A DNA stretch of 37,710 nucleotides. Source: a virus. The translations under genes and the position numbers were made by a program. The notes beneath the pieces were generated by a model. The model was not told the origin of the DNA, did no database searches, and saw only the letters and a program-made list of their open reading frames with translations. Location: IMG/VR virus record IMGVR_UViG_3300036828_001640, positions 1 to 37,710 of that record; one strand, given 5' to 3'. Positions 9,479 to 34,786 of the stretch are shown here, in pieces (positions within the stretch are counted from its first letter, which is position 1; each line of letters opens with the position of its first letter).

Positions 9479-10030
9479 ATGTTTAAAGAAGCCATGGATT
9501 GGATCACTTTAATTGCAAGTATTTTTACAATGTTAGCAGCCAGTGCAACTCTATATGCTGTTTGGTTAGCACATACGGCATGGAGGACGTGGAAGACACA
9601 ACAAAATTATAGTTTTTCTAGAGATAAAATATTTGAATGTGAGTTAATTGTTAATAAATTGACTTCAACACTAATTAACTACATTACAGGTTATTATCAT
9701 TACAGATTAAAAGTTGTAAATAATGAGTTTGTTGATAAAAAAGAATATATGCAATTGTTTGAAAATCAAGGGAAGGAGAACAACAGGTTATTGTTAGAAT
9801 ACGATTTAATCCTTGAATCTTTAGATATTCTTAAAATTGATTGTGATGAAAAAATTATCATTAACAGATTATTCGTTGCTTATAACTTTGATAAATATGT
9901 ATCTCAAATAAATAAATGTAAAGAAAGTAAAGAGTTAGTTACTTTGTATTGGCAACAACTATTGCCTGAAATGCAAAGTTTTAGAAAAGAAATGCTTAAG
10001 GAATTGAAGAAAAAAAGAGAAAACCTTTAA
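9479..10030 (+). CDS. Membrane-anchored accessory protein (moron candidate)
   Basis: 183 aa. Residues about 9-32 (ITLIASIFTMLAASATLYAV) form one hydrophobic helix, followed by a long soluble helical domain rich in K, E and N that is probably cytoplasmic. No family recognised. There is no clear ribosome site, and the gene is more AT-rich than the late genes. It is placed just after the late leader terminator, where lambdoid phages carry cargo genes that alter the host. Superinfection exclusion is one possibility, from topology and place only. Confidence 0.55.
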   Translation: MFKEAMDWITLIASIFTMLAASATLYAVWLAHTAWRTWKTQQNYSFSRDKIFECELIVNKLTSTLINYITGYYHYRLKVVNNEFVDKKEYMQLFENQGKENNRLLLEYDLILESLDILKIDCDEKIIINRLFVAYNFDKYVSQINKCKESKELVTLYWQQLLPEMQSFRKEMLKELKKKRENL

Positions 10031-10111
10031 TTATTGAGCTGAGTATTCCGAATATTCTAATTGATCTAACAAAAAGCTATAGTAAACTCCTACCGATAAA
10101 TAGGAAAAAAC

Positions 10112-10288
10112 ATGAATATTTGCATCGGTGGCGAACAGAACGGTCAAGTTGTAGAGAAAAGCCCGAATGATTACTTTCAACAGTCAATCGTAATTGGTGA
10201 AAAGACATATAAGTTTTGGTTTTCAGATAAATTAAGTTTTCATGATGCGTTTGTCGAAGCTGAGAAGCTGGCAAGGCAGATCAAATAA
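10112..10288 (+). CDS. Small phage protein, 58 aa
   Basis: A short gene with AGGA upstream of its ATG. The product starts MNICIGGEQNGQVV and then forms an apparent beta hairpin and a terminal helix (FHDAFVEAEKLARQIK). Small proteins with this CIGG start are common in phages of this kind, to my recollection, without known function. It ends just before an intrinsic terminator, which supports a separate transcription unit. The longer antisense frame over the same bases is a shadow. Confidence 0.6.
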   Translation: MNICIGGEQNGQVVEKSPNDYFQQSIVIGEKTYKFWFSDKLSFHDAFVEAEKLARQIK

Positions 10289-10311
10289 GGGATTATCCCG
10301 TATTTAAAATT

Positions 10312-10333
10312 AAGGCGCTTAGGCGTCTTTTTT
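10312..10333 (+). terminator. Intrinsic terminator
   Basis: AAGGCGC pairs with GCGTCTT (one G-T) around TTAG and is followed by a run of T. It closes the 58-aa gene. Confidence 0.7.
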
Positions 10334-10346
10334 ATTGGAGGTTCAC

Positions 10347-10448
10347 ATGCTCCGAATCAAACAAATCTTCTGTCTTCATGTTTGGGAATATTCAGATTTC
10401 TTTACGGTGAGAGAGTGTCGGAAGTGTGGGAAAGTAAAACCAATCTGA
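10347..10448 (+). CDS. Mini zinc-ribbon-like protein, 33 aa (DUF1660-like)
   Basis: A very short gene with a strong GGAGG site eight bases before its ATG. The product has the pattern C-x-H near residues 9-11 (IFCLHVWEYSD) and C-x2-C-G near 25-29 (VRECRKCGKVKPI), which would hold one zinc ion. Prophage proteins of the DUF1660 type have this form. Function unknown, possibly a small regulator. Confidence comes from the ribosome site plus the Cys/His pattern. Confidence 0.55.
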   Translation: MLRIKQIFCLHVWEYSDFFTVRECRKCGKVKPI

Positions 10449-10516
10449 AATTAAGATGTGCATATAATACAATTTGTTAGGATGCTGTGTGAAATAAAAC
10501 AGCATGAAAACTATGC

Positions 10517-10522
10517 TAGAAT
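10517..10522 (+). promoter_or_regulatory. Candidate extended -10 promoter
   Basis: TGCTAGAAT gives an extended -10 (TGN-TAGAAT) about 35 bases before the 71-aa gene, with a poor -35. It could drive that gene independently of the late operon. Confidence 0.3.
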
Positions 10523-10556
10523 GGTGGTTATATTTTTAGATTTGTAAGGAATCACC

Positions 10557-10772
10557 ATGTTAGAAATAATGTTGTCTGCCCAGAACCTAAAAGAAGAGCT
10601 TCTGGAAACCTATCAAAATTGTACTTATTTAGCTAATCCCTTAGATTGTGAATCTAGAAGACTATACATTTTAAGTCATTACAAAGTGGATAGTGTTGAT
10701 GAGCTGAATGAAATGCAGTTAGCTAGATTAATAAACATGACTATAGGTAGTTATTTATCATATCTAAGCTAG
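10557..10772 (+). CDS. Small hypothetical phage protein, 71 aa
   Basis: 71 aa with AAGGA nine bases before ATG. Soluble, acidic and helical; the middle (LYILSHYKVDSVDELNEMQL) resembles a small helical bundle. No family recognised. It has its own terminator immediately downstream and a possible promoter upstream, so it may be a stand-alone moron expressed in the lysogen. Confidence 0.55.
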   Translation: MLEIMLSAQNLKEELLETYQNCTYLANPLDCESRRLYILSHYKVDSVDELNEMQLARLINMTIGSYLSYLS

Positions 10773-10786
10773 TTATATTTGAAACC

Positions 10787-10808
10787 AACCACCTCAACGG
10801 TGGTTTTT
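10787..10808 (+). terminator. Intrinsic terminator
   Basis: AACCACC / GGTGGTT with loop TCAAC and a T run; follows the 71-aa gene. Confidence 0.8.
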
Positions 10809-10862
10809 TAATGCTTTAACATTTTTTAGTTTACAATGTGAAAAAATTTAACTGTAATCAAC

Positions 10863-11279
10863 ATGAAACCAATTCTATTAATATTCACATTATTCATTTG
10901 TGGCCATTCCTTTGCATATAAAAACAAAGATTTTGAAAAGCAGTATTGGTTAAATACTCTAGCTCTGTCGGTCGCGACTGATAAACTTATGGATTTCTCA
11001 TTAAAACAAAAGCCAAGACTGGCATCGAGTGATGGAAACGTTGAGCCTGATTTAAAATCAGATGCGGAAGAAAATTTTCTGTACTGCAATCTAGATAAAG
11101 TGGCAATTCAATTTTACGGTTACATTGTTAATAATTATGATGATTATAAAACAATGCTTACTTCCGACAATGTTAAACCACCAAGTAAACAAGAAGTGGA
11201 AACAGATTTGTCCAGCAGTATTTTATCAATAGAAAAACGCATTAATGTATCTAGGGGTGATGAATACAATTGCAGATAG
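10863..11279 (+). CDS. Exported (signal-peptide) protein, moron candidate
   Basis: 138 aa with a classic Sec signal: MKP, a hydrophobic core ILLIFTLFICG and a probable cut after HSFA (residue 18), so the mature protein is periplasmic or secreted. Cys13 is inside the hydrophobic core and does not form a lipobox. The mature part is acidic with two Cys (FLYCNLDK and EYNC), which may form a disulfide. No family recognised. It has no good ribosome site and is followed by its own terminator. An envelope-acting lysogenic conversion factor is a fair guess. Confidence 0.65.
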   Translation: MKPILLIFTLFICGHSFAYKNKDFEKQYWLNTLALSVATDKLMDFSLKQKPRLASSDGNVEPDLKSDAEENFLYCNLDKVAIQFYGYIVNNYDDYKTMLTSDNVKPPSKQEVETDLSSSILSIEKRINVSRGDEYNCR

Positions 11280-11306
11280 AAACATTGAGTATAGACATCA
11301 ACCAAG

Positions 11307-11326
11307 CCCCTCCCGAGGGGTTTTTT
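11307..11326 (+). terminator. Intrinsic terminator
   Basis: CCCCTC / GAGGGG with a two-base loop followed by six T; closes the accessory block before the structural genes. Confidence 0.85.
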
Positions 11327-11404
11327 AATGCCTAGAGGAATGTTGTTATCTAAAGACACCTGATGGCTTGATGTGTGCATGGGAAATGAACAGTTGAGGT
11401 TGCT

Positions 11405-12061
11405 ATGTTAAATATTAGATTCAATGTAGATGACCAAATAAGGCAAGTCAGTAGAGAACATAAAAGGCAAATAGATTTTGCTTTGGCTCAAACCGTTAAT
11501 AAGTTAGCCAAGTTAGCTCAAGCAGAAGAAAAGAAAGGCTTAGCGAGTTTCTTTGATACGCCTACGCCGTTCACTGTTAATTCAGTTGCAATCAAAGCAG
11601 CTAGAAAAGGCAATCCCACTGCAACGGTGTATATAAGACCAATAGCAGCAAAATATATAGAACCGTATGAATATGGTGGTAAGCAATACCTTGGGGCTAA
11701 GCCTGCTGATTTAGTTCCAATTAACGCCGTATCAAACCAATATGGCAACTTACCAAGAAACGCTATTAAGAAGTACATGAATAGAAAAGATGTGTTCTTG
11801 GGTAAGGTGAAAACATCAAGCGGTGTGGTGTATGGCTTATGGCAACGTCCAGCCTCACAAGCCCGCAGAGGCGCAAAGCGTACAAGGGGCGGACGGTTAG
11901 CAAATACAACAGGGCATTTAAAACTGCTTGTGTCATTTGCTGAGCCAGTCAATACACGTAAACGACTTAACTTTGGGCAACGGTCACAATTAATAGTGCA
12001 ACGTAATGCCGCCGTGTTGTTTAGAAACACATTAGCAAGTGCAATTGCTTCTGCTAGATAG
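11405..12061 (+). CDS. Minor tail/virion-like protein (gpZ-like candidate)
   Basis: 218 aa, strongly basic. An N-terminal helix (EHKRQIDFALAQTVNKLAKL) is followed by a mixed beta region (TATVYIRPIAAKYIEPYEYG) and an R/K-rich stretch (RRGAKRTRGGRL) near 155-167, ending in a helix (LFRNTLASAIASAR). The overall plan, helical start with 'AxNR/VNKLAxxA' followed by basic beta strands and a terminal helix, resembles lambda minor tail protein Z and related tail-completion proteins. That is my best guess; its position before the terminase rather than after the head genes is unusual. Confidence 0.45.
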   Translation: MLNIRFNVDDQIRQVSREHKRQIDFALAQTVNKLAKLAQAEEKKGLASFFDTPTPFTVNSVAIKAARKGNPTATVYIRPIAAKYIEPYEYGGKQYLGAKPADLVPINAVSNQYGNLPRNAIKKYMNRKDVFLGKVKTSSGVVYGLWQRPASQARRGAKRTRGGRLANTTGHLKLLVSFAEPVNTRKRLNFGQRSQLIVQRNAAVLFRNTLASAIASAR

Positions 12062-12070
12062 AGAATAGAT

Positions 12071-12265
12071 ATGAATCCATTAACAGTTTTACTTTGGTTG
12101 TTGTGTGCTTTCCTAGTGATTGGCTTCTTTGGTGGCATTGGTTTGTTGATCTATATGATTAAAAGCCGAAGGAAAGCAATTAAAGAGTTCAATGACCGTC
12201 TGGTCGCTATGAGGTTGAAGCCACACAAAGCATTTACAAAAGGTACTTCCCACAAGATCCTATAG
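12071..12265 (+). CDS. Small single-span membrane protein, 64 aa
   Basis: 64 aa with a long hydrophobic helix (residues 4-31, LTVLLWLLCAFLVIGFFGGI onward) and a positively charged cytoplasmic tail (KSRRKAIKEF), so N-out/C-in topology is expected. It starts nine bases after the gpZ-like gene. Small one-span proteins beside the packaging genes are unassigned in many phages; a holin or antiholin is possible but a separate holin exists at 36460. Confidence 0.5.
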   Translation: MNPLTVLLWLLCAFLVIGFFGGIGLLIYMIKSRRKAIKEFNDRLVAMRLKPHKAFTKGTSHKIL

Positions 12266-12318
12266 ACACGGGGATTGCGCAGCGTGCTTTGTGACTAGCT
12301 ACGAAATTTTTTGAAGTG

Positions 12319-12601
12319 GGTAACAGGGTAACGGGTAACATGAATCAAGCACAATTTGCTCGACTCCATGAAGTAAGCAAAAAGACTGTTACCTCATGGA
12401 AAAATAAAGGTTGGGTTGTCTTAAACACAGATGGCTCGGTTGATGTAGAGCTAAGCAATAAAAATTTAGAACTCTACAGAAAAGAAAAAAATACACCAGA
12501 TGAAGTAATAGGTTTCAAAGTTACCCAAGGTAACGAGGTAACGGATTCAGGTAACGATTCAGAGGGTAACCCTGATCCAAATGACGAGTTTTCAGGTTAC
12601 C
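12319..12601. repeat. GGTAAC repeat cluster, candidate packaging/cos-binding region
   Basis: Ten GGTAAC hexamers occur in 283 bases: three direct copies just before the terS ATG (12319, 12327, 12334), one inverted at 12388, and inside the gene four direct (12529, 12537, 12550, 12565) plus two inverted (GTTACC 12520 and 12596). About 0.1-0.2 would be expected by chance. Lambda-type small terminase binds repeated sites next to cos at this same place in the genome, so these may be its recognition sites, with the nick near the GC-richer stretch at 12265-12300. Confidence 0.5.
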
Positions 12602-12915
12602 CAGAAACAAAGTTGCCTGCTAAGGAATTAAATCGGCGCTTAACTTTAGAAAAGCTAAAACTAGAACGTGAGCGGGCAAGAGCGGCTGAATACGATACAG
12701 CAATTAGAGAAGGTCGATTATTAGAAGCCGACAAGGTATATCAACACGATGCAGAAGTTGCAGCTCAACTACAACGAAAGTTACTTTCTTTGCCTTCTGA
12801 GCTTGCAGTTCGTCTTTCAGCAATTAACTCACCCGCAGAAATTGAAAGTTTACTGAGAGAGGAATTGACGTACTGCCTTAATGAGTTCTTAGATTCTTAT
12901 GAAACTGAAAATTAG
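12340..12915 (+). CDS. Terminase small subunit (Nu1-like)
   Basis: 191 aa from ATG 12340, chosen over GTG 12316 because the helix-turn-helix begins here. Residues 1-40 (MNQAQFARLHEVSKKTVTSW) form the DNA-binding domain seen in lambda Nu1, 50-95 is a low-complexity acidic linker encoded by GGTAAC repeats, and 95-191 is helical (KLPAKELNRRLTLEKLKLER) for assembly and contact with the large subunit. It recognises the packaging site. It overlaps the large-subunit gene by 17 bases, which keeps the two coupled. Confidence 0.8.
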   Translation: MNQAQFARLHEVSKKTVTSWKNKGWVVLNTDGSVDVELSNKNLELYRKEKNTPDEVIGFKVTQGNEVTDSGNDSEGNPDPNDEFSGYPETKLPAKELNRRLTLEKLKLERERARAAEYDTAIREGRLLEADKVYQHDAEVAAQLQRKLLSLPSELAVRLSAINSPAEIESLLREELTYCLNEFLDSYETEN

Positions 12916-15170: not shown

Positions 15171-16844
15171 ATGACTGCAGCAAAAGATAAACCTCATGTA
15201 AGTATTCTTGATGTTCATGGTCAGCCGATAACGCAAAAATCAAAAGCATTGGCAGGCAATGAGGGATTCGCAGCCCCGCCATATGATGCAGCTGGTTATT
15301 CAAGTGAGCACACTGCTGGTTGGTCGCCTTCTTTATGGTCACCAGATAACGAGATTAATAGTGGCCGCGACATTATTGTGGCTCGTGCTCGTGATTTGGT
15401 TCGGAATGATGGCTGGGCAAATGCCGCCATTACTCGAAACCTAGATAATGTTATTGGTCCTGAATTTAGACCTTTAAGTAAGCCAGATTATTACGCTTTA
15501 CAGCAAGTTACAGGCAATAAAGGGTTTGATCATAAATGGGCAGAGGAGTTCGGTCGAGCAGTTGATGCTTATTGGCGACTATTTGCAAATGATGTTGGAC
15601 GATATTGTGACGTTGAACGATGCTTAACAGTGTCTGAAATGCTCTATTTGTCATACAGACACAAAATTATTGATGGTGATGCGCTCGCATACATTAAGTG
15701 GCAACCTGAGCACGTTGGTTATGGTCGAGCTAATTTTGCAACTGCAATACAAGTGATTGATCCTGATCGGCTGAGCAATCCAAACAACCAATTCGATCTG
15801 AAAAACGTCCGTGGTGGTGTTGAAATTACAGAGGACGGTGCACCAATTGCCTATCACATAAGAAAAGCTCATCAAGGGGATTGGTTTAATGCTGACAAGT
15901 CGGTGATTTGGGAGCGTATCCCAAGAGAGACAGACTGGGGGAGGCCAATAATCGTACATGACTTTGATCATGACCGAGCCTCACAACATAGAGGAACGGG
16001 CATTTTAACTTCTGTCGTTGAAAGACTGAAAATGTTGATCAAGTACGATGGTACCGAAATGGATGCGGCAATTGTGAATGCAATTTTTGGAGCATTTGTC
16101 ACCAGTCCTTACGATCAAAGTTTTGTTGAGGATGCGCTTGGTGGTACTGGTCCAGATTCCGCTGGATTGGGAGCTTATCAAGAGTTTCGCACTGAATTTC
16201 ACAAAAATAGTCGCATTAAGCTTGGTGGAGTGCGTATGCCGATTTTGGCACCTGGTGAAACAATTAATACCGTTTCAGCGCAGCGACCAAATTCTAACTT
16301 TGCAAGTTTTGAATCTGCTGTATTGCGAAATGTGGCAGCTGGAACAGGCATGAGTGCTCAACAGATCAGCCAAAACTGGGCAGAGGTGAACTACTCATCT
16401 TATCGCGCCGCAATGTTGGAAGCTTGGAAAACCTTTAATCGTCGCCGTATCAACTTTGCTACAGGCTTTTGTCAGCCTTTATTTGCTGCATGGTTAGAAG
16501 AATGTTTTGAAGTGGGTAATCTTCCATTACCTGCAGGTTCGCCAGACTTTATCCAATATCGAAGTTTGTATGGTCGTTGTAGATGGATGGGGCCTGGGCG
16601 CGGTTATGTTGATGACGTTAAAGAAAAACAAGGGGCGATTCTTGGTATGGATGCAGGTCTAACAACGCTTGAAAAAGAAGCCGCGCAATTAGATGGTGCG
16701 GATTATCGAGAAATATTAGATCAAAGAGCGAATGAGGTAAAAATGTTTAAGGACAGAGATTTGCCACTACCTAAATGGACTGGTGAGGGGGAGGAGGCAA
16801 GCCCTCCCGCTAAACAGACAACTCAATTACCAGAGGTAGAATAA
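15171..16844 (+). CDS. Portal protein (lambda gpB family)
   Basis: 557 aa. The lambda-family portal is recognised by ARDLVRNDGWANAAITRNLD near 65-85 and IGPEFRPLS, the VIDPDRLSNP core, HDFDHDRASQHRGTG and the late GTGMSAQQISQNWAEVNYSS segment (about 390-410). Twelve copies would form the ring through which DNA passes and on which gpW assembles. The C-terminus (530-557) is acidic and disordered. The stop overlaps the start of the protease gene (TAATG). Confidence 0.95.
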   Translation: MTAAKDKPHVSILDVHGQPITQKSKALAGNEGFAAPPYDAAGYSSEHTAGWSPSLWSPDNEINSGRDIIVARARDLVRNDGWANAAITRNLDNVIGPEFRPLSKPDYYALQQVTGNKGFDHKWAEEFGRAVDAYWRLFANDVGRYCDVERCLTVSEMLYLSYRHKIIDGDALAYIKWQPEHVGYGRANFATAIQVIDPDRLSNPNNQFDLKNVRGGVEITEDGAPIAYHIRKAHQGDWFNADKSVIWERIPRETDWGRPIIVHDFDHDRASQHRGTGILTSVVERLKMLIKYDGTEMDAAIVNAIFGAFVTSPYDQSFVEDALGGTGPDSAGLGAYQEFRTEFHKNSRIKLGGVRMPILAPGETINTVSAQRPNSNFASFESAVLRNVAAGTGMSAQQISQNWAEVNYSSYRAAMLEAWKTFNRRRINFATGFCQPLFAAWLEECFEVGNLPLPAGSPDFIQYRSLYGRCRWMGPGRGYVDDVKEKQGAILGMDAGLTTLEKEAAQLDGADYREILDQRANEVKMFKDRDLPLPKWTGEGEEASPPAKQTTQLPEVE

Positions 16845-17716
16845 TGAATCGTTTCGGTTTTTTGGCACAACGTTTATTTAATGTGCCTCTTGCAATTCAC
16901 CCATCAAAAGCAGAAGTCGTTATTTCAGCATTATCTGAGCGCTTGGGTATTAGTCAGATCCAACGAGTTGCAATGATGGAGGATGATGATTATGAATTTT
17001 CTTCACCATCACGCAAAAGTAAAAGTGCTGGTTATGAAGTTGCAGGCGGTGTTGCAATTATTCAAATTGAAGGCACTTTAGTTCAAAAATTAGGTTGCTT
17101 AAAACCCTATAGCGGAATGACTGGTTATGACGGTATACGACAAAACCTCTATGCCGCAATAAATGACCCAGAAGTAAAAGCGATCGCTTTAGATATTTGC
17201 TCACCTGGTGGGGAAGTATCAGGGTGCTTTGATCTTGTTGATGCTATCTATGAAATCAGAGGGATAAAGCCAATTTGGGGCATCCTGAATGAATATGCCT
17301 ATTCTGCTGGATATGCAATTGCGAGCGCCTGTGACTATCTTACAGTCCCTCGTACAGGTGGAGTTGGCTCTATTGGTGTAATAACAATGCATGTTGATAT
17401 GGCAAAAGCTATTGATAGTGCTGGTTTAAAAGTCACATTCATTACATATGGAAAACATAAGGCTGATGGTGCACCAGAAATACCACTCGCACCTGAGGCA
17501 CTTGAGCGATATCAAAAAGAAATTGATGCAATGGGTGAGCTATTTGTAAATACAGTGGCTCGTAATCGTAACTTGGATGCTTCAAAAGTTAAAAACACTG
17601 AAGCAATTACCTTCATGGGACAGAATGGTGTTGATATGGGGCTTGCTGATGCAGTTATGTCCCCAGACGCAGCATTTAACGCCCTTTTTGAAAAAGTAAA
17701 ATCAGGAGAGCTTTAA
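16844..17716 (+). CDS. Prohead protease, S49/SppA family (lambda gpC-like)
   Basis: 290 aa. An SppA-like fold with nucleophile S154 in NEYAYSAGYAIA and probable general base K206 in YGKHKADGAP; LDICSPGGEVSG near 117-127 lines the oxyanion region. It would cleave the scaffold and other head proteins during maturation. Unlike lambda gpC it does not contain the scaffold as a C-terminal extension; the next gene appears to supply it. Its stop abuts the start of that gene. Confidence 0.9.
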   Translation: MNRFGFLAQRLFNVPLAIHPSKAEVVISALSERLGISQIQRVAMMEDDDYEFSSPSRKSKSAGYEVAGGVAIIQIEGTLVQKLGCLKPYSGMTGYDGIRQNLYAAINDPEVKAIALDICSPGGEVSGCFDLVDAIYEIRGIKPIWGILNEYAYSAGYAIASACDYLTVPRTGGVGSIGVITMHVDMAKAIDSAGLKVTFITYGKHKADGAPEIPLAPEALERYQKEIDAMGELFVNTVARNRNLDASKVKNTEAITFMGQNGVDMGLADAVMSPDAAFNALFEKVKSGEL

Positions 17717-18334
17717 ATGGCTAAGCCACTAACCAAAACCAAAAAGAAAACAATGCAACCGGCAGCGCCTTTTGCTAGTTTCATGAAACTTAACGCATCT
17801 GAACAAAATGAAGATGAACAAGCCCGCCGCGCTGAAAAAGAGGAAGAGTGGGCAAAAAAAGCTGAAACAGATCCAGACCGTGAACAGATGGAAGATGAAT
17901 CTGATGACGACTATGCAGCTCGCATGGAAGAGCTGGACGAGGAAGAAAAAAAGGCAGATGGAGAAATCATTGAAGATGATCCTGATGCAGAAGAAAATGA
18001 TGAAGATGACGAAAAGCCTAATGCAAAGGCTGCGCGTGCTTCTGAGCGTAAACGCTGTGCGCGAATTATTGCTCATGGCATTAAAGCAGGGAATGTTCAT
18101 CAAGCAGCCGTATTTGCATTCGATACTGGTTTAACAGCTACTCAAGCAATTTCAGCAATGAATGCCGCAAAAATAGATACATCTCGCGGTGGTGGTCTAG
18201 GCGTGAAAATGCAAGGTGTTGGAAATTACCAAGTGGGTACAGATGTTGGTGGTAATAATCATAAAGGCCAAAACAAATCAACTGCTCAAGCAAATGACAT
18301 TTTAAAGTCACTTGAAGCTGTTCGCGGTAAATAA
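17717..18334 (+). CDS. Scaffold-like protein (Nu3 analogue)
   Basis: 205 aa. Residues 35-105 are extremely acidic (runs of E and D), typical of phage scaffolds that are removed before packaging. Residues about 105-150 (AARASERKRCARIIAHGIKA) match the C-terminal tail found on ClpP/S49-type prohead proteases of other phages, which suggests that a protease-scaffold fusion has been split into two genes here. It starts right after the protease stop and precedes the decoration protein, the lambda order C-Nu3-D-E. Confidence 0.75.
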   Translation: MAKPLTKTKKKTMQPAAPFASFMKLNASEQNEDEQARRAEKEEEWAKKAETDPDREQMEDESDDDYAARMEELDEEEKKADGEIIEDDPDAEENDEDDEKPNAKAARASERKRCARIIAHGIKAGNVHQAAVFAFDTGLTATQAISAMNAAKIDTSRGGGLGVKMQGVGNYQVGTDVGGNNHKGQNKSTAQANDILKSLEAVRGK

Positions 18335-18346
18335 AAGGAAAATGAA

Positions 18347-18766
18347 ATGACAAATTATTCAAATAATCCTTGGATTCCAAGCATGACAACTGATGTGTTT
18401 GTGCCAGATCAGCTTGTTGCAGGTGATTTAAAGATTGTCACTGACACAGTCCCAGTCGGTGGCAGTGGGGTTTATGAGCGTGGCACTGTTATGGGGATGA
18501 TTGAAGCCACTGGAGTGTGGATTCCTTCAATTAATACTGCAACAGACGGCTCAGAAAAACCGCGCGGTATTCTAGTTGATCAGGTTGATGCAACTGTTAC
18601 CTCACCACAAACTGGTGGTGTCTATGTGATGATTGAGGTCAATTTTAACAAACTTATTTACGATGCAAGTTGGGGTGCGGCAGGCAGTGCAGCAGCTTTG
18701 ACTGCATTAAAGGCTGGTTTTGGTGCGACAAGTATTTTCTTGAAAACACCGATTTCAGCAAACTAA
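18347..18766 (+). CDS. Head decoration protein gpD-like
   Basis: 139 aa. It begins with a flexible N-terminus, then VAGDLKIVTDTVPVGGSGVY and a RGTVMG strand, and GILVDQVDAT later, the beta-rich pattern of lambda gpD trimers that stabilise expanded heads. Located between scaffold and major capsid gene, as in lambda. A GGAAA ribosome site precedes the ATG and a terminator follows. Confidence 0.85.
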   Translation: MTNYSNNPWIPSMTTDVFVPDQLVAGDLKIVTDTVPVGGSGVYERGTVMGMIEATGVWIPSINTATDGSEKPRGILVDQVDATVTSPQTGGVYVMIEVNFNKLIYDASWGAAGSAAALTALKAGFGATSIFLKTPISAN

Positions 18767-20115: not shown

Positions 20116-20505
20116 ATGAATGTGGATTGGCAAAGCAAAGTTTTGTCTCCACTAATGGCTGTCTTCGGGCAGCCAATTTTATATGCGTCTGTCAAAGATA
20201 AATATCTTGTAAAGCATAGCCTTAGTGGGGTTTTTGATGAAGCCTATATTGATATTCAAGTTGTTGATAGCTTGCATGTTACTTCTGTCAGTCCGTGTAT
20301 TGGTTTGAATCTAAAAGATTTGCCAGTTACACCTCGTCAGAAAGATCAAATATTAGTAAAAGCTTCATTTGGTGCACCTTTGGTTGACACGCTGTATATG
20401 GTCAAAGAGGTGAGGCTTGATGGACATGGTGGCTGTCGCTTACTTCTAAATCTTGCACCTAAAGCATGCGACATTACATCTGAAAAGGGGACACAAGATC
20501 AATGA
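20116..20505 (+). CDS. Head-tail attachment protein (gpFII-like)
   Basis: 129 aa from ATG 20116; the open frame extends upstream but would overlap the previous gene. It is a beta-rich protein (YIDIQVVDSLHVTSVSPCIG, VRLDGHGGCRLLLNL) in the position of lambda gpFII, the head-tail joining protein. It overlaps the next gene by four bases (ATGA). Confidence 0.7.
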   Translation: MNVDWQSKVLSPLMAVFGQPILYASVKDKYLVKHSLSGVFDEAYIDIQVVDSLHVTSVSPCIGLNLKDLPVTPRQKDQILVKASFGAPLVDTLYMVKEVRLDGHGGCRLLLNLAPKACDITSEKGTQDQ

Positions 20506-21188
20506 TTCCTGTATTGCCGTTATTGTTTCGCCGTCAGATGCGGATAGCTGTTGTTTCAGCGCTCCAAAAAGCTGATTTATGGCTTGGTGATGATCCAGTT
20601 TCAATAGATTCACCAGGGAATTGGAATGTACAACAGACACCAAATGATGGAGTTTTCCCCTGTATTTTTGTACGAACATCCACAGAAGGGAAAGCAGCGA
20701 TAATGAAAGCGGGCATTCCTGAATTTGATACTTCAATAAGTATTGATGTGATGTGTGTTGTGGCTTCAACCACAGCAGAGAAAGCACAAGATGATATTGA
20801 GCAGCTTTGGTATCAGGTTGAGAATTTATTGCTAACCGATTACTCAATTGTTGGATCTGTGCAAAATGTTCAATCTGTTGATAGTCGATTAGAAATAGTT
20901 TCAAACGGAAATGAACATATCGCAGCAATATCAGCAGCATTTGTTTATGAAGGTTTTGAAGTGTTTGACAGCCAGGCGACAGAGCCACCTATAACAGAGT
21001 TCCCAGTTAAACCATCAAAAACAGTGCCATTAAATAATGTTCATATTCATTTGGATTTAGTCAATGTTGCGGATCCAACAGGTACGTATCCCGATTCTAA
21101 ATATCCCGATTCTGTAGTCCCAGCACCAAGAAAACATGGTCCTGATGGACGAGATGAAGCGGAATTAGACATTAAGTTGAGTCAATAA
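20502..21188 (+). CDS. Tail terminator-like protein (Mu gp37-like)
   Basis: 228 aa. Residues 1-160 have the alpha/beta plan of tail terminators: an N-terminal helix (RRQMRIAVVSALQKADLWLG), VFPCIFVRTSTEGK and DTSISIDVMCVVASTTAEKA. About 60 extra C-terminal residues (DLVNVADPTGTYPDSKYPDS) look extended. As the last gene before the DUF2635/sheath pair it matches Mu gp37, which ends the tail tube and joins it to the head. This is the head-tail module boundary. Confidence 0.7.
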   Translation: MIPVLPLLFRRQMRIAVVSALQKADLWLGDDPVSIDSPGNWNVQQTPNDGVFPCIFVRTSTEGKAAIMKAGIPEFDTSISIDVMCVVASTTAEKAQDDIEQLWYQVENLLLTDYSIVGSVQNVQSVDSRLEIVSNGNEHIAAISAAFVYEGFEVFDSQATEPPITEFPVKPSKTVPLNNVHIHLDLVNVADPTGTYPDSKYPDSVVPAPRKHGPDGRDEAELDIKLSQ

Positions 21189-21380: not shown

Positions 21381-22889
21381 ATGGTTCCTTTTTCAAATGT
21401 GCCTAATGATGTTCGAGTACCATTATTTTATGCTGAAGTAGATAACTCTCAAGCAAATTCAGCAACAACAGTACAACGGACCTTAATTATTGGTCAAATT
21501 ACTAGCCTAGGTACAGCTACACCTGAATTGCCTCAGATTTGTGGTGGGGTTGGTGATGCTCAAGCTAAGTATGGTATTAATTCTCAGCTTGCAGCAATGG
21601 TTGCGGCTTACCGCAAAAATGATGATTTTGGTGAAGTTTGGTGCTTACCACTTTTAGATCCAGGAGACGCGCCGTCAGCTACAGCAACAATTACAATTTC
21701 TGGTACACCATTGAAAAATGGTGCGATTAGCTTATACGTTGGTGGGGGCGGTTACTGGGGGGATGGAACAGGTTTATATCAAGTTCCTGTAACTACATTC
21801 TCTACTGAAAGTTCAATTGTTACTTCACTTATTAACTTAATTAATTCAGATTTAAAAGCTCCCGTAAAAGCAACAAGTGCTGGGGCTGGAAAAATTAAAT
21901 TAACGGCTGTTCACGGTGGGGCAATTGGTAATGAAATTGACCTTCGCTTAGATTACTTAGACACACTAGGCGGGCAATCAACACCATCGGGACTCTCAGT
22001 TCTTTTTGATTCACAAAAGTTAATTGGTGGTGCTCTAAACCCAAATTTAGAAGGTCCACTTTCTAGCCTTGGTGATACGACTTTTGATTTCATTGTCTGC
22101 CCATATGTGGATACAGCCTCTTTAAATGCCTTGGATAATTTTCTCGGCATGCAAACGGGGCGATGGTCATGGAGCCAGCAACTTTATGGCAATTACTTTG
22201 CTGTAAATAACGGAACTTTTGGTGACCAGACAACATTGGGAACAACTCGAAATAGTCCTTATGGTTGTATTTTAGGTGTATATGACTCTCCAACACCGTC
22301 ATGGATTATTGCAGCTCAATATGTTGGTGCTATCGCTCAATCACTAAAAAACGATCCCGGTCGACCACTTCAAACTTTACCCATTGTCGGCATGTTTGCA
22401 CCTCCAACAGCAAGCCGTTTTGCATTAACAGATCGAAATATTCTTTTATATAACGGTATTTCGACTTTAACGGTTGGTGATGATGGGCTTTGTCGTGTTG
22501 AAGCAATAATTACAACCTACCAAAAAAATGCATTTGGATCCCCTGACAATTCATACTTGAAAATCGAAACCATGTTTTTACTGGCTTATATTTTGCGGTA
22601 CATGAAAACTCGGATTACAACGAAGTATGGCCGTATGAAGTTAGCAGCAAATGGAACGAGATTTGCTCAGGGTTCAGCGATCGTTACACCAAATATTATC
22701 CGTTCAGATGTCATTGCCGCTTATCAGGAACTCGAATTTAACGGTCATGTTCAAGATGCTGATGCTTTCGCCAAAGCACTTATTGTCGAGCAAAATTCTG
22801 AAAATCCAAATCGGGTTGATGTGTTGTGGCCAGGTACTTTGATTAATCAATTAAATGTGTTTGCGCTTTTGGCTCAATTCAAATTGTAA
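21381..22889 (+). CDS. Contractile tail sheath (Mu gpL-like)
   Basis: 502 aa. Starts MVPFSNVPNDVRVPLFYAEV, then TVQRTLIIGQITSLGTA; the C-terminal third carries the conserved sheath core (ETMFLLAYILRYMKTRITTK, then IVTPNIIRSDVIAAYQELE). This is the Mu-type sheath that contracts to drive the tube through the envelope, so the virion is a myovirus. A AAGAGG site precedes the ATG. Its first 20 residues recur at the start of the 675-aa protein at 32716. Confidence 0.95.
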   Translation: MVPFSNVPNDVRVPLFYAEVDNSQANSATTVQRTLIIGQITSLGTATPELPQICGGVGDAQAKYGINSQLAAMVAAYRKNDDFGEVWCLPLLDPGDAPSATATITISGTPLKNGAISLYVGGGGYWGDGTGLYQVPVTTFSTESSIVTSLINLINSDLKAPVKATSAGAGKIKLTAVHGGAIGNEIDLRLDYLDTLGGQSTPSGLSVLFDSQKLIGGALNPNLEGPLSSLGDTTFDFIVCPYVDTASLNALDNFLGMQTGRWSWSQQLYGNYFAVNNGTFGDQTTLGTTRNSPYGCILGVYDSPTPSWIIAAQYVGAIAQSLKNDPGRPLQTLPIVGMFAPPTASRFALTDRNILLYNGISTLTVGDDGLCRVEAIITTYQKNAFGSPDNSYLKIETMFLLAYILRYMKTRITTKYGRMKLAANGTRFAQGSAIVTPNIIRSDVIAAYQELEFNGHVQDADAFAKALIVEQNSENPNRVDVLWPGTLINQLNVFALLAQFKL

Positions 22890-25634: not shown

Positions 25635-25704
25635 TTTGACAACCCTTAAAGATGATTATAGAAATGAAGCAAGGATGCAATTTTCTAATCAAACTGAGAC
25701 AATA

Positions 25705-26157
25705 ATGAAAAAATTTATTCTGATAACTTTTGTTGTTCTTACTTCTAACTCTATTCAGGCTGAAAACTATGCTCAATCAAAGAAAGCTATAAGAAATATT
25801 CTAGTTTCATGCTTAAAAGATCCTGAGAATTCGAAGTATTCCGCAGCATTCAATAGCTGTTTGCTAGATGCATCCGATAATTTTATTAAAAAAGCAGATT
25901 TAGAGTTTAATAAACAATTAAAAACAGCTAATGCTATTGAGCGCACTTCACTTATAAAAGATCAGCGGATTTATAAGACCTCTCTAAAAAATTGCGAAAT
26001 ATATCAAAATTTAAGTTTTGACGGATTTACTAAAGAAGCAGTGTGCAAACTACAGACAGGCAAAGATTATCTTAGCTTATTAACTGGTGGCGCTTCCTCA
26101 CTGCCTAGTAATTGGACGCTTGAAGACAGGGTAGATAAATTATTTATTGGTTACTAA
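25705..26157 (+). CDS. Exported LprI/DUF1311-like protein inside the tail operon
   Basis: 150 aa from ATG 25705, selected because it opens a typical signal peptide (MKKFILITFVVLTSNSIQA, cut after residue 19). The mature part has four Cys and the LprI/DUF1311 pattern: C-x(n)-C before a helix, an ALEF-like helix (DNFIKKADLEFNKQLKTANA), LIKDQRIYKTSLKNCE and a final C-KLQTGKDYLSLL. Some members of that family inhibit lysozyme; others are unassigned. It is inserted between the tape measure and gpN genes with its own terminator. It might protect the host wall from lytic enzymes or block incoming phages. Confidence 0.65.
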   Translation: MKKFILITFVVLTSNSIQAENYAQSKKAIRNILVSCLKDPENSKYSAAFNSCLLDASDNFIKKADLEFNKQLKTANAIERTSLIKDQRIYKTSLKNCEIYQNLSFDGFTKEAVCKLQTGKDYLSLLTGGASSLPSNWTLEDRVDKLFIGY

Positions 26158-29176: not shown

Positions 29177-29197
29177 CCCTAATAAGGGGTTTTTTTG
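29177..29197 (+). terminator. Intrinsic terminator
   Basis: CCCCT / AGGGG with loop AATA and a run of seven T, between the spike and gp46-like genes. Confidence 0.8.
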
Positions 29198-29211
29198 TGG
29201 ACAAAATAATC

Positions 29212-29646
29212 ATGACTGATATTCAGACCATTTGGGATGTTTCGACAGGAACGGGCGATTACGAGATTGAGAATGGTGAATTAAGTAAAGGCCATGATGT
29301 TAGAACATCGGTTTTAATAAGTTTATTCACCGATCGAGTAGCAGATGTAAATGATGAGTTACCAGATAACACACAAGATCGCCGTGGATGGTGGGGTGAT
29401 ACAGGGCAAAAATATCCGATTGGATCAAGGTTGTACCTTTTAGATCGATCAAAAGCACCAACAAATATTGAACTTGAAGCCATTAATTACGCAGCTGAGG
29501 CGGTCCAATGGATGATAGACGATGGCATAGTTGCGAAATTTGATATTCAAGCAAAATTTATTCATAGCAATCAATTAAGAATGATTGTTGTTGCTTATCG
29601 TCAAGATGGCAGCATTTTAAGTAAAATTTCAGAGGAGCTTTGGTAA
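29212..29646 (+). CDS. Baseplate wedge protein (Mu gp46/gp25-like)
   Basis: 144 aa from ATG 29212; a GTG five codons earlier lies against the terminator. TDIQTIWDVSTGTGDYEIEN, then LSKGHDVRTSVLISLFTDRV and DRRGWWGD..GSRLYLLDRS are the Mu gp46 signature, related to T4 gp25. It connects the baseplate to the first sheath ring. Its stop abuts the ATG of the next gene. Confidence 0.9.
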   Translation: MTDIQTIWDVSTGTGDYEIENGELSKGHDVRTSVLISLFTDRVADVNDELPDNTQDRRGWWGDTGQKYPIGSRLYLLDRSKAPTNIELEAINYAAEAVQWMIDDGIVAKFDIQAKFIHSNQLRMIVVAYRQDGSILSKISEELW

Positions 29647-31458: not shown

Positions 31459-32274
31459 ATGCCTCTTTCTCAACCAGAGTTAAATGCAGTAGCATTTGCA
31501 GTAAACAGTACTTTAAAAAATACAATTCCAGCAACAACCAGTACCCGTGGCGCAGCTTCGTTTGATAAAGGCTTTCCGCCTGAAACAATGGTTAAAAAAC
31601 TAGCTGGTGGTATTGCCCCAAGCGGTTATGATTTTAACGGTATTTTAAACTTTTTCGGTCAGCATCAAGTTTGGCAAAATGCAGGTGGTAAATATAAATT
31701 TAACTCTACTATTGCCAATGCTCTAGGTGGATATCACAAAGGGGCCGTTCTTAGTTCCGATGATGGTCTACGTTTGTACGTGAGTACAGTAGATGGAAAT
31801 ATGAATAATCTAAATAATGTTTTAACTGGCTGGGCTTTAATAGCTACAAGCGAGTTTGAAAATATTATTAATACTGAAAAGAATGATCGAATTAGCAGTG
31901 ATAACTTACTGAATAATAAAATTGATTATGAGATTTTACAGCGTGAAAATGCAGATAATTTAATTCGGCAAAGCTTGTTTCTTGGACAGGCTGTTATCAA
32001 TGCTGGAGATTTTATTGGATCAAGGGCACTCTCAACAGCTTATATCAATAATACTCCATACCCAAAAGTAATTAGTATTACAAGTGATCAAACAGTGGGA
32101 AATACAGAGTTAGGCGGTTTTTTTGGTAAGACACCTGGTGTTTTTACCAAAGTTGCTGGGGGGCGAATTAACTCTAACGTTACACCAGGCGGCTGCAACA
32201 TCCTATTCATTGTTCCACCTCAGTTTTATTACAAGGTGGAGGGAACAGGTTTAACCAATTGGTTTGAATATTAA
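31459..32274 (+). CDS. Tail fibre / receptor-binding protein 1
   Basis: 271 aa. The N-terminal part (TIPATTSTRGAASFDKGFPP, KLAGGIAPSGYDFNGILNFF) is the conserved baseplate-binding segment of fibres that follow gp48 in phages of this kind. Residues 140-180 are a coiled-coil-like helix (EKNDRISSDNLLNNKIDYEI) and the C-terminus a small beta-rich head with a G-rich stretch, likely receptor binding. The fibre is short compared with Mu gpS. The variable end would set host range. Confidence 0.8.
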   Translation: MPLSQPELNAVAFAVNSTLKNTIPATTSTRGAASFDKGFPPETMVKKLAGGIAPSGYDFNGILNFFGQHQVWQNAGGKYKFNSTIANALGGYHKGAVLSSDDGLRLYVSTVDGNMNNLNNVLTGWALIATSEFENIINTEKNDRISSDNLLNNKIDYEILQRENADNLIRQSLFLGQAVINAGDFIGSRALSTAYINNTPYPKVISITSDQTVGNTELGGFFGKTPGVFTKVAGGRINSNVTPGGCNILFIVPPQFYYKVEGTGLTNWFEY

Positions 32275-32288
32275 TAAAAGGTCTGAAA

Positions 32289-32702
32289 ATGAAATATTTT
32301 AAAGATAAAGATGGTTCAGTTTATGCCTTTGAGGATGACGGATCCCAAGATGAATTTATCACCCCTACAATGAAAATGATGACTAATTCTCAAATAGATC
32401 GTCATTTAAGCCCACAGAAATATCTAAATGATGAAGAAAAAAATCTAATTTATCTTCAATCATTAAGACCTTTAACTCGCCGTCAATTTATGTTGGCTCT
32501 TGTAGAAAATGATCTTGATGAAGCTGTTGAAACAGCAATAGGCAATATTCAAGATGCCAAACAGCGAAAACAAATGAGTATTGAATATAAAGATGCTCAA
32601 ACTTTCGAGCGTTTCAGTGCGTCAATAATGACTATGGCTACATTAATTAATTTAGATGATGAAAGCCTAAATTCTATGTGGGAAAAAGCTTTGACGTTGT
32701 AA
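32289..32702 (+). CDS. Tail fibre assembly-like protein
   Basis: 137 aa. MKYFKDKDGSVYAFEDDGSQ followed by a helical remainder (LRPLTRRQFMLALVENDLDE, ERFSASIMTMATLINLDDES) is the plan of small chaperone-like proteins following fibre genes (caudoviral fibre assembly or DUF4376-like). It would help fibre trimerisation or attachment. It lies 14 bases after the fibre gene. Confidence 0.65.
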   Translation: MKYFKDKDGSVYAFEDDGSQDEFITPTMKMMTNSQIDRHLSPQKYLNDEEKNLIYLQSLRPLTRRQFMLALVENDLDEAVETAIGNIQDAKQRKQMSIEYKDAQTFERFSASIMTMATLINLDDESLNSMWEKALTL

Positions 32703-32715
32703 GAGGGAAATTTAA

Positions 32716-34743
32716 ATGATTCCATTTAATAAAATACCAAGGGGACTAAGAGTCCCTTTATTTTTTGGTGAATTAGCAATTGATGGCGATGTGTTAGGGG
32801 GGAGTCCACAACCACCTCAACCGGGTATTAGTTGTGTTGGTGCATCTGAAAAAATGAACTTTGGAAGTTTTCGTGGTTATTGGGATATGGAACTAAACGG
32901 AGTTTTTTATCCATCATCAACAGACTTACTTCAAAACTATATTACAAATCATTTTAGTGACAAAATTTACGCTGATTATGATGGGTTTATTAATTTTGGC
33001 AATATCTCACACGATGATCACAGGATACGTCTTATACCAATAATGGATGCGGGTTATTCCAATCCTTATGGGAATGACACCTTTATGGAAAATGAGGATG
33101 GTAGTTTAACGTTTTGCTTGAAAGGAGTTGTTGAAAAACCCGTAATTTCATGTGACGGTGCAACAGCCAATTTACCTTTAAGTATTACCCTACCAATGCA
33201 TGCAGCAGATGGTACTTTTACTATTAGAGATTCAAGCAAAACAGCTAATAATGAATTGGATGTTATTGTTGAAATTTTTGGATCAGACATTGTTGAGGGG
33301 CAAGATTTTGTAACTCAATTAAAGACTTTAGTAAATCCCGATTATGCAAGCTTAGTTTCATTTACCACACTTAATCCAACAGTTTTTGCTGGAGATGGTA
33401 CGGTTACAGGTTATATCAATATCAAAGCAAACGTACCAGATTTGCGTATCTCAGTAGAATTGATTAAAGCAATTGATGTAAATCCTGAACTCTTATTTTT
33501 AAATATCCTTACACCAACAAATCCAGCTACACCTACATATTTTTGGGATACTCATGATCCTGAAAATGGTAATTACTTATTAAGTGCTTGTATAAGTGAC
33601 AATAATTTAATTTCATGTGCAGGGGCAACTCAATCAATAATGTTTGAACCAGGACCTGCATTTAATGGTCAAATTAATTGGGCTGTTGAGTTTGATGGAG
33701 TTACTTACGATATTGGTAACGTTTGGGCTGGTGAAATTATCAGCAATATGCCTAGCCACATTAAAGATATGATTTTCATGGAGTGGACTGGCTTATGGTT
33801 GGTGGAAAACAGAGATACTCAACCACACAGATTTAAATTAATACCTTCACCTAAGCCTGGTTATGATCCTATACAAGCACCATCATCAACTAACGAATCA
33901 TTCTTGTTAAATGAAGATGGTTCATTTGCATTTTGTTTAGCTGGGGCTGAACCAGTTTTCCCACCATATGCAGTAGTGAAAACAAGAGCGCTTTGGGGCA
34001 GTAGCTTTCCTGCCAAAATCACTGTTAATGGTACAGAATATTCAGGCGATCTATTCGGCAATTTAGCTGACGTTTTAGCACATCAATACAATGTCTACAC
34101 AGGTTTTGAAAGAATCTATGGGGATTTTGAAGGTGATCCTGATTTAGTACGTGTTGTATTTGCTGGGGATGTCTTTGCTGAGAATGCAAGTATCTCTGTT
34201 GAGTTTTTATCTGAAATCGCTATAAATATTGATGATAGCTTCTCGTACCCAGAAAATGAAACGCTTAAAATTAATGGAAAATCAGCAAGCTTTAATATTG
34301 GTAAGCTGGTTTGTATTACTAAAGTCGCTCAATATGGCAGTATCAATAATTCCAACTTTTTACTTGAGTATGGTCAGCCATTTAATTTTAGAGTTGGGGA
34401 TAAAATTAATACCAATATCCTCACAAATAGAATTGCTGGTGCTGGAATAGAAGATCCTGCAAGCTTTTGTGCTTCTGCAGCATCACCAGAGGGCTGTGTG
34501 CAAAGCAATCTACTTTCTAACCTGAGTGAGCAATGGAATCCCGAATTAAGGACCATTAATGTAAAAGTAAGTTGGTCGGGACTAAGTAGAGTCGTGATGC
34601 CATTAAATGCAAGCGATGATAAAGGTGTTGGTGACCCTTTTGCTACAGCAAAATTTGTAGTACAGCCAAACGATAAGACTCCTATCAATGATATGTATTT
34701 TCTTGGTTATACCATTCCAACATGTGATGATATGCCATCTTAA
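32716..34743 (+). CDS. Large repeat protein with a sheath-like N-terminus
   Basis: 675 aa, no signal peptide. Residues 1-20 (MIPFNKIPRGLRVPLFFGEL) closely resemble the sheath start MVPFSNVPNDVRVPLFYAEV. The rest is tandem modules: ISCVGAS (38) to FCLKG (137), ISCDGAT (144) and ISCAGAT (299) to FCLAG (410). The module ends share NEDGS-x2-FCL-x-G and the intervening domains share VFAGD and ISVE-type strands (about 224-252 and 481-505). A Cys-containing beta-rich multi-domain protein in the fibre region suggests a virion decoration or adhesin bound to the tail. I know no family for it. Confidence 0.75.
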   Translation: MIPFNKIPRGLRVPLFFGELAIDGDVLGGSPQPPQPGISCVGASEKMNFGSFRGYWDMELNGVFYPSSTDLLQNYITNHFSDKIYADYDGFINFGNISHDDHRIRLIPIMDAGYSNPYGNDTFMENEDGSLTFCLKGVVEKPVISCDGATANLPLSITLPMHAADGTFTIRDSSKTANNELDVIVEIFGSDIVEGQDFVTQLKTLVNPDYASLVSFTTLNPTVFAGDGTVTGYINIKANVPDLRISVELIKAIDVNPELLFLNILTPTNPATPTYFWDTHDPENGNYLLSACISDNNLISCAGATQSIMFEPGPAFNGQINWAVEFDGVTYDIGNVWAGEIISNMPSHIKDMIFMEWTGLWLVENRDTQPHRFKLIPSPKPGYDPIQAPSSTNESFLLNEDGSFAFCLAGAEPVFPPYAVVKTRALWGSSFPAKITVNGTEYSGDLFGNLADVLAHQYNVYTGFERIYGDFEGDPDLVRVVFAGDVFAENASISVEFLSEIAINIDDSFSYPENETLKINGKSASFNIGKLVCITKVAQYGSINNSNFLLEYGQPFNFRVGDKINTNILTNRIAGAGIEDPASFCASAASPEGCVQSNLLSNLSEQWNPELRTINVKVSWSGLSRVVMPLNASDDKGVGDPFATAKFVVQPNDKTPINDMYFLGYTIPTCDDMPS

Positions 34744-34749
34744 ACAATG

Positions 34750-34770
34750 ACCTCCTTCGGGAGGTTTTTT
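34750..34770 (+). terminator. Intrinsic terminator
   Basis: ACCTCC / GGAGGT with TTCG tetraloop and a T run; closes the 675-aa gene. Confidence 0.85.
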
Positions 34771-34786
34771 ATTGCTTGGAGAAAAC

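Follow-up and report, generated by a model that had tools for sequence, protein, structure and literature searches.

The closest described system is the contractile sheath of Mu, where the N-terminal arm (N-arm) of one gpL (gp39) subunit, the C-terminal arm (C-arm) of its neighbour and two domain I strands of the adjacent ring form a four-stranded handshake sheet (PDB 9khy and 9ki1; PMC11915804). According to this account, the sheath arms of the first ring pair with the gp46 wedge, a hairpin of the terminator gp37 completes the handshake of the last ring, and every handshake slot is filled. A similar kind of arrangement is described for XM1, with gp5 as the non-sheath partner at the sheath end (PMC10457771). 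In what they describe of the arms, both structure papers agree with the first-pass annotation of the DNA studied here, which took the sheath N-terminal arm to link neighbouring subunits. Mu gp46, the gp37 hairpin and XM1 gp5 (PMC11915804, PMC10457771) are non-sheath proteins that complete handshake sheets at sheath ends, a role proposed below for a short sheath-like tag. However, they are conserved core tail parts with strands of their own and, as described there, none is an N-arm copy carrying an exchangeable body. Another comparison is offered by the Ig-like and other surface domains of phage structural proteins, which have been proposed to aid adhesion (Fraser et al. 2006, cited in PMC9230969); additional sheath domains are described in the same source (PMC9230969). 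Such domains are exchangeable surface modules, like the bodies of the tagged proteins presented here, but as described they are fused to an entire structural protein, whereas the tagged proteins borrow a short arm only and no structural domain. No description of a sheath N-arm on a non-sheath protein was found in searches of an open-licence library.

The DNA analysed (the window) is the whole stretch of 37,710 nucleotides (37.7 kb) corresponding to positions 1-37,710 of record IMGVR_UViG_3300036828_001640. It encodes an integrase, a CI-type repressor, a terminase, a portal and a major head protein, and represents a temperate contractile phage. No matching phage record was found by a megablast-level search with bases 9000-33000. 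The tail cluster is of the SfV/Mu type and includes sheath, baseplate J, Gp48, tail fibre, holin, lysozyme and GP46 wedge genes. The sheath gene (Mu gpL/SfV type, 21381..22889, plus strand like all window features given with coordinate ranges in this form) matches phrog_165 (E=4e-165), the Pfam profiles Phage_sheath_1 and 1C and, in PDB, the Mu sheath 9khy. Its product aligns to Mu gpL over the whole length and its structure model resembles the Mu sheath (9ki1, 9khy) with a TM of about 0.8. In this monomer model the N-arm (residues 1-30, 21381..21470) is unfolded, with confidence values under 50, and the body starts with a strand at residues 33-39. The GP46 baseplate wedge protein (29197..29646; Pfam GP46 E=7e-32; phrog_180) is a candidate docking partner for a sheath arm, its Mu counterpart being the protein that pairs with the first-ring arms. 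A vacant slot was also sought at the head end, where the ORF in the terminator position (20502-21188) shows no similarity to Mu gp37 by BLASTP. A 173-aa ORF that follows the tape-measure gene and precedes the next tail gene (25636-26157) includes, by eye, a signal-peptide-like stretch (MKKFILITFVVLTSNSIQAENYAQ); this is an unusual site for an exported protein.

The subject of this study is the gene at 32716..34743. It is the first to follow a tail-fibre gene (31459..32274; phrog_12796 tail fiber protein, E=3e-36) and a gene for a 137-aa protein (32289..32702; phrog_14311) which, from its position, may be assembly-like. It encodes a protein of 675 aa that starts with MIPFNKIPRGLRVPLFFGELAIDGD. 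When the whole protein is compared with the sheath by BLASTP, a single real match is obtained, residues 1-20 on residues 1-20, with 10 of 20 positions identical and 16 of 20 positive (E=1e-4). Past residue 20, local alignment scores no higher than 36, less than the shuffle mean of 41.9. Compared with the sheath start, the tag (32716..32775) obtains a score of 67 and the runner-up among the 1588 possible start 20-mers of the window a score of 20. With the tag as reference, the highest score among 127,841 unrelated start 20-mers from related loci is 27. In 200,000 shuffles a score of 67 was never reached. The window contains two occurrences of a degenerate DNA pattern for the motif, at the tag and sheath starts, against none in 100 shuffled windows. 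Translation-start bias, one of the two conditions under which the first-pass annotation would have given up its observation, and chance are both ruled out by these scores and counts. That annotation had reported the ten identical residues, the dissimilarity of the remainder of the two proteins and nucleotide differences at many third positions (here pS 0.61 and pN 0.39 between the tag and its own sheath). The three statements hold, and the observation of a sheath-like start on the 675-aa protein is confirmed and stronger than first stated.

The residues involved are those that sheaths themselves conserve. Eight N-terminal positions are invariant in 32 sheaths of this family (F4, P8, R12, P14, L15, F16, E19 and A25). 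The five tagged proteins described below keep all of those lying between positions 7 and 20, and four of the five also keep F4. The likeness ends at position 20, just ahead of the D-N-S-Q-A-N linker of the sheath. From there the tagged proteins continue with S-[IV]-N-G (AIDG in the window), then with a Pro/Ser/Gly-rich stretch; in the window protein the alignment of tagged proteins delimits this region as residues 21-37 (32776..32826), AIDGD followed by Gly, Pro and Ser, which probably acts as a tether. Judged from these alignments, the tag corresponds to the N-arm segment of the sheath, the same peptide segment as in Mu gpL. The Mu arm belongs to the sheath subunit itself (PMC11915804), whereas here a second copy is carried by a protein with neither sheath fold nor C-arm. 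As a possible paralogue of contractile sheaths, the 675-aa protein has the conserved N-arm motif and gives no Pfam match to the sheath fold (Phage_sheath_1, 1C) and no likeness past residue 20.

Other proteins starting with this motif, which the first-pass annotation had proposed to look for in related phages, do occur. An initial survey of 55 loci chosen by baseplate J found the motif on sheaths only, and these first searches suggested a private one-off fusion, an explanation dropped once relatives with 78-80% sheath identity, reached through a sheath search, were examined. A tag search of their records gave two matches each, the sheath and another ORF, in L073 (G001), L075 (G002) and L076 (G003). 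The sheath was the sole match in each of 17 more distant phages. A pattern scan added a fifth version of the tag in two near-identical copies, L165 (L170 in its re-oriented form) and L166. These fragments probably belong to the same clade as the window, because the metagenome that yielded L165 also yields a sheath at 78% identity (L074), on a separate contig from the tagged gene. The additional tagged proteins start with MNFNNIPMGLRVPLFFGEISVNGS (G001), MNFNNIPDQLRTPLFFGEVSINGN (G002), MISGQIPRGLRAPLFFAEVSINGN (G003) and MNFSNIPEGLRTPLFFGEISINGT (L170). A tail-fibre gene precedes the tagged gene in all five, and a small assembly-like gene lies between the two in the window and G001. The tagged gene of G001 is at the very end of its contig and that of L170 runs off the contig. 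Tail fibres and tailspikes also combine a conserved N-terminal anchor with a variable receptor-binding part. The tagged proteins share this layout and the gene neighbourhood, but their anchor is a copy of a sheath arm and not a fibre attachment domain. Two genes that are unusual for a phage tail region lie past the tagged gene of G003, on the minus strand (L162, 28-3365). One product, of 687 aa, is CotH kinase-like (Pfam E=3e-17); the other, of 420 aa, is a DUF285 surface-repeat protein (E=3e-48).

The motif appears to be specific. Pattern scans for the motif without its usual sheath continuation covered IMG/VR (2.9 million contigs) and 84,980 species with one genome each. Sheaths accounted for 4 of 4, 9 of 9 and 19 of 24 matches in three of them, the remaining 5 of the 24 being tagged proteins of the clade, and a further scan returned five matches, all tagged proteins of the window's clade; divergent tags would escape these scans because exact matches are needed, and the records scanned may lack those closest to the window. 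Of the ORFs recovered in 243 loci by a profile of the tag, 183 are sheaths and 17 are (redundant) copies of tagged proteins; one further match is weak and due to chance. No tagged second protein was found in 369 Gammaproteobacteria genomes, in which the single match is a sheath. Outside sheaths, the motif therefore appears, in the scans named above, only on the tagged-protein family.

The first-pass annotation considered the copy to be old or kept by selection, and this is borne out by five conserved tags with near-saturated synonymous sites on variable or replaced bodies. The tag cores (18 codons) are identical at 12-15 of 18 positions in pairwise comparisons among the five proteins, with pS of 0.38-0.88 and pN of 0.11-0.30. 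Since the core is kept although synonymous sites have changed heavily, the peptide appears to be under purifying selection; the pattern is strong but, coming from 18 codons in five sequences, is no formal test. Body lengths lie between 95 and 675 aa, bodies that align over at least 100 columns are about 35-45% identical, and the body of G003 is unrelated to the others (scores within those of shuffles). In these comparisons the anchor has been kept while the cargo has changed. The tag reaches 74-78% identity with sheaths of other phages and 50% with its own, which rules out a recent copy of the resident sheath.

A terminator-like hairpin followed by a T run, found by a consensus scan, closes the tagged gene (34749..34774). 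In itself it is not evidence of function. G002 has one at the same place, and another was seen by eye after the G003 gene. In the window, the codons of the tag themselves include a second terminator-like hairpin, again with a T run (32739-32759); it is also present in L170, weaker in G001 and absent from G002, G003 and the sheath. Because of this patchy occurrence and of the scrambled synonymous sites, an RNA or DNA element was rejected as the conserved feature in favour of the peptide.

The body of the window protein consists of three segments starting with ISCxGA and an unclassified C-terminal part. Module 1 (ISCVGA...FCL, residues 38-136, 32827..33123) is 85% identical to a module of L003, falls within the phrog_5283 match and is the sole confident part of the structure model. 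Segment 2 (ISCDGA...ACIS, 33145..33606) starts with the same signature, module 3 (ISCAGA...FCL, 33610..33945) shares about 55% identity with one from the second L003 ORF, and the C-terminal part (33946..34743) has no family match and low model confidence. The bodies of the tagged proteins match phrog_5283 and phrog_14345, both of unknown function: phrog_5283 is matched by residues 37-196 of the window protein (E=5e-30), by L161 (E=1e-28) and by L170 (E=6e-172, 574 bits), and a profile search gave no such match for the G003 body, for which only weak spike or glycosidase matches were obtained (E=0.003-0.007). Searches by Pfam, PDB sequence and Foldseek gave no usable identification of the window body, its model being poor except for module 1. 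Neither a Pfam match nor a significant Foldseek match, the latter on this poor model, pointed to an Ig-like domain, and no fibre family was found for the window protein by family profile searches for a fibre or spike domain.

Related bodies are found in L003, a phage with a different sheath type, in the head-gene region and behind another N-terminal domain. There (9791-12847) two adjacent ORFs share a 60-aa N-terminal domain (KELKFKDTIQFGVWKFL...) ahead of their ISCxGA bodies, and within the L003 record this domain occurs on those two ORFs only. The best-matching stretches of the phrog_5283 profile start at positions 95 to 239 and positions 1-94 are not matched, so that the N-terminus of this family is not the tag. 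Since the L003 bodies sit behind another N-terminus and phrog_5283 is matched only from position 95 or later, the body is, as far as these alignments go, a portable module whose N-terminus differs between phages.

We consider that the 675-aa protein is one of a few related tail proteins made of a sheath N-arm mimic, a tether and an exchangeable body, and docked on the sheath or on the GP46 wedge, with a probability of roughly 0.5. The tag would add a strand to the handshake β-sheet, either between sheath rings or between the first ring and the wedge. Tethered in this way to the exterior of the contractile tail, the body may serve as an accessory adhesin or a decoration; only the position of the gene points to an adhesin. 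The first-pass annotation had suggested that the protein could be a decoration or fibre plugged into sheath or baseplate, and all the comparative evidence agrees with this. The difficulty lies in the Mu structure, where all handshake places are occupied: a tagged protein would have to find a free end, replace some of the arms or act transiently. It might coexist with the sheath's own arms at the ring ends, by replacing them at a few positions or as an extra edge strand. Two further points weigh against docking: the N-arm acts with the C-arm of a neighbour, which is missing from the tagged protein, and the tag does not follow the sequence of its own sheath. More tentatively, the handshake joint could be an addressable docking site in general, the copy of about 20 residues being a portable tag that fixes exchangeable adhesins to the cylinder of the sheath and some rings a mosaic of sheath and foreign arms.

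The same observations can be read otherwise. A sheath-derived tag might now bind another partner, such as the fibre base, an assembly protein or itself; the tags have in common some residues that sheaths rarely or never have, chiefly S-[IV]-N-G past position 20, and are closer to the sheaths of other phages than to their own, but a changed partner is hard to reconcile with the invariance, in all tags, of every sheath-invariant residue at positions 7-20, and we regard this as rather unlikely. Quite unlikely is an assembly regulator, a cap, chaperone or competitor whose arm mimic binds free sheath subunits or the wedge and controls the place or time of polymerisation without becoming a lasting part of the virion. 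A soluble protein bearing a sheath arm would be a natural competitor, and the full occupancy of finished Mu tails favours a transient role. However, the bodies are long, modular and exchangeable, one being unrelated, as would be expected of outer parts rather than of a regulator, and the gene is grouped with those for fibres. That the peptide is a relic without docking role, recombination having supplied the ribosome site and first codons of the sheath as a ready-made start, is very unlikely: phage genes are often mosaic and TAAGAGG precedes the start codons of both tagged and sheath genes in the window, but the peptide is kept while synonymous sites are heavily changed and bodies wholly changed, and the upstream sequences of the other tag copies are not sheath-like.

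If docking on the sheath or wedge is the correct reading, the joint that holds sheath rings together can take foreign passengers, accessory outer proteins can be exchanged without redesign of the baseplate, and a short natural tag would be available for the display of proteins on contractile tails in the laboratory. phrog_5283 and phrog_14345 would also gain a testable place, the tail exterior. From the comparisons made here, a protein family of unknown function appears to be tied to a defined and testable candidate binding peptide.

An ISCxGA body also occurs next to sheath sequence in L263 (MF417929.1, phage clone 2F_1, human skin; 15784-18412, minus strand). An ORF whose product has a related body (BLASTP E=1e-7 to L170; phrog_14345 E=5e-12) interrupts the P2-type sheath gene after about 200 codons. 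A run of 7 T (U_UUU_UUG) lies at the junction, across which the frame changes to -1. The sequence coding for the C-terminal half of the sheath comes next, as a separate ORF that has an AAGGA ribosome site, whereas intact relatives have one contiguous sheath gene. The interruption may correspond to an assembly or homopolymer error, or to a second way of joining an ISCxGA body to a sheath.
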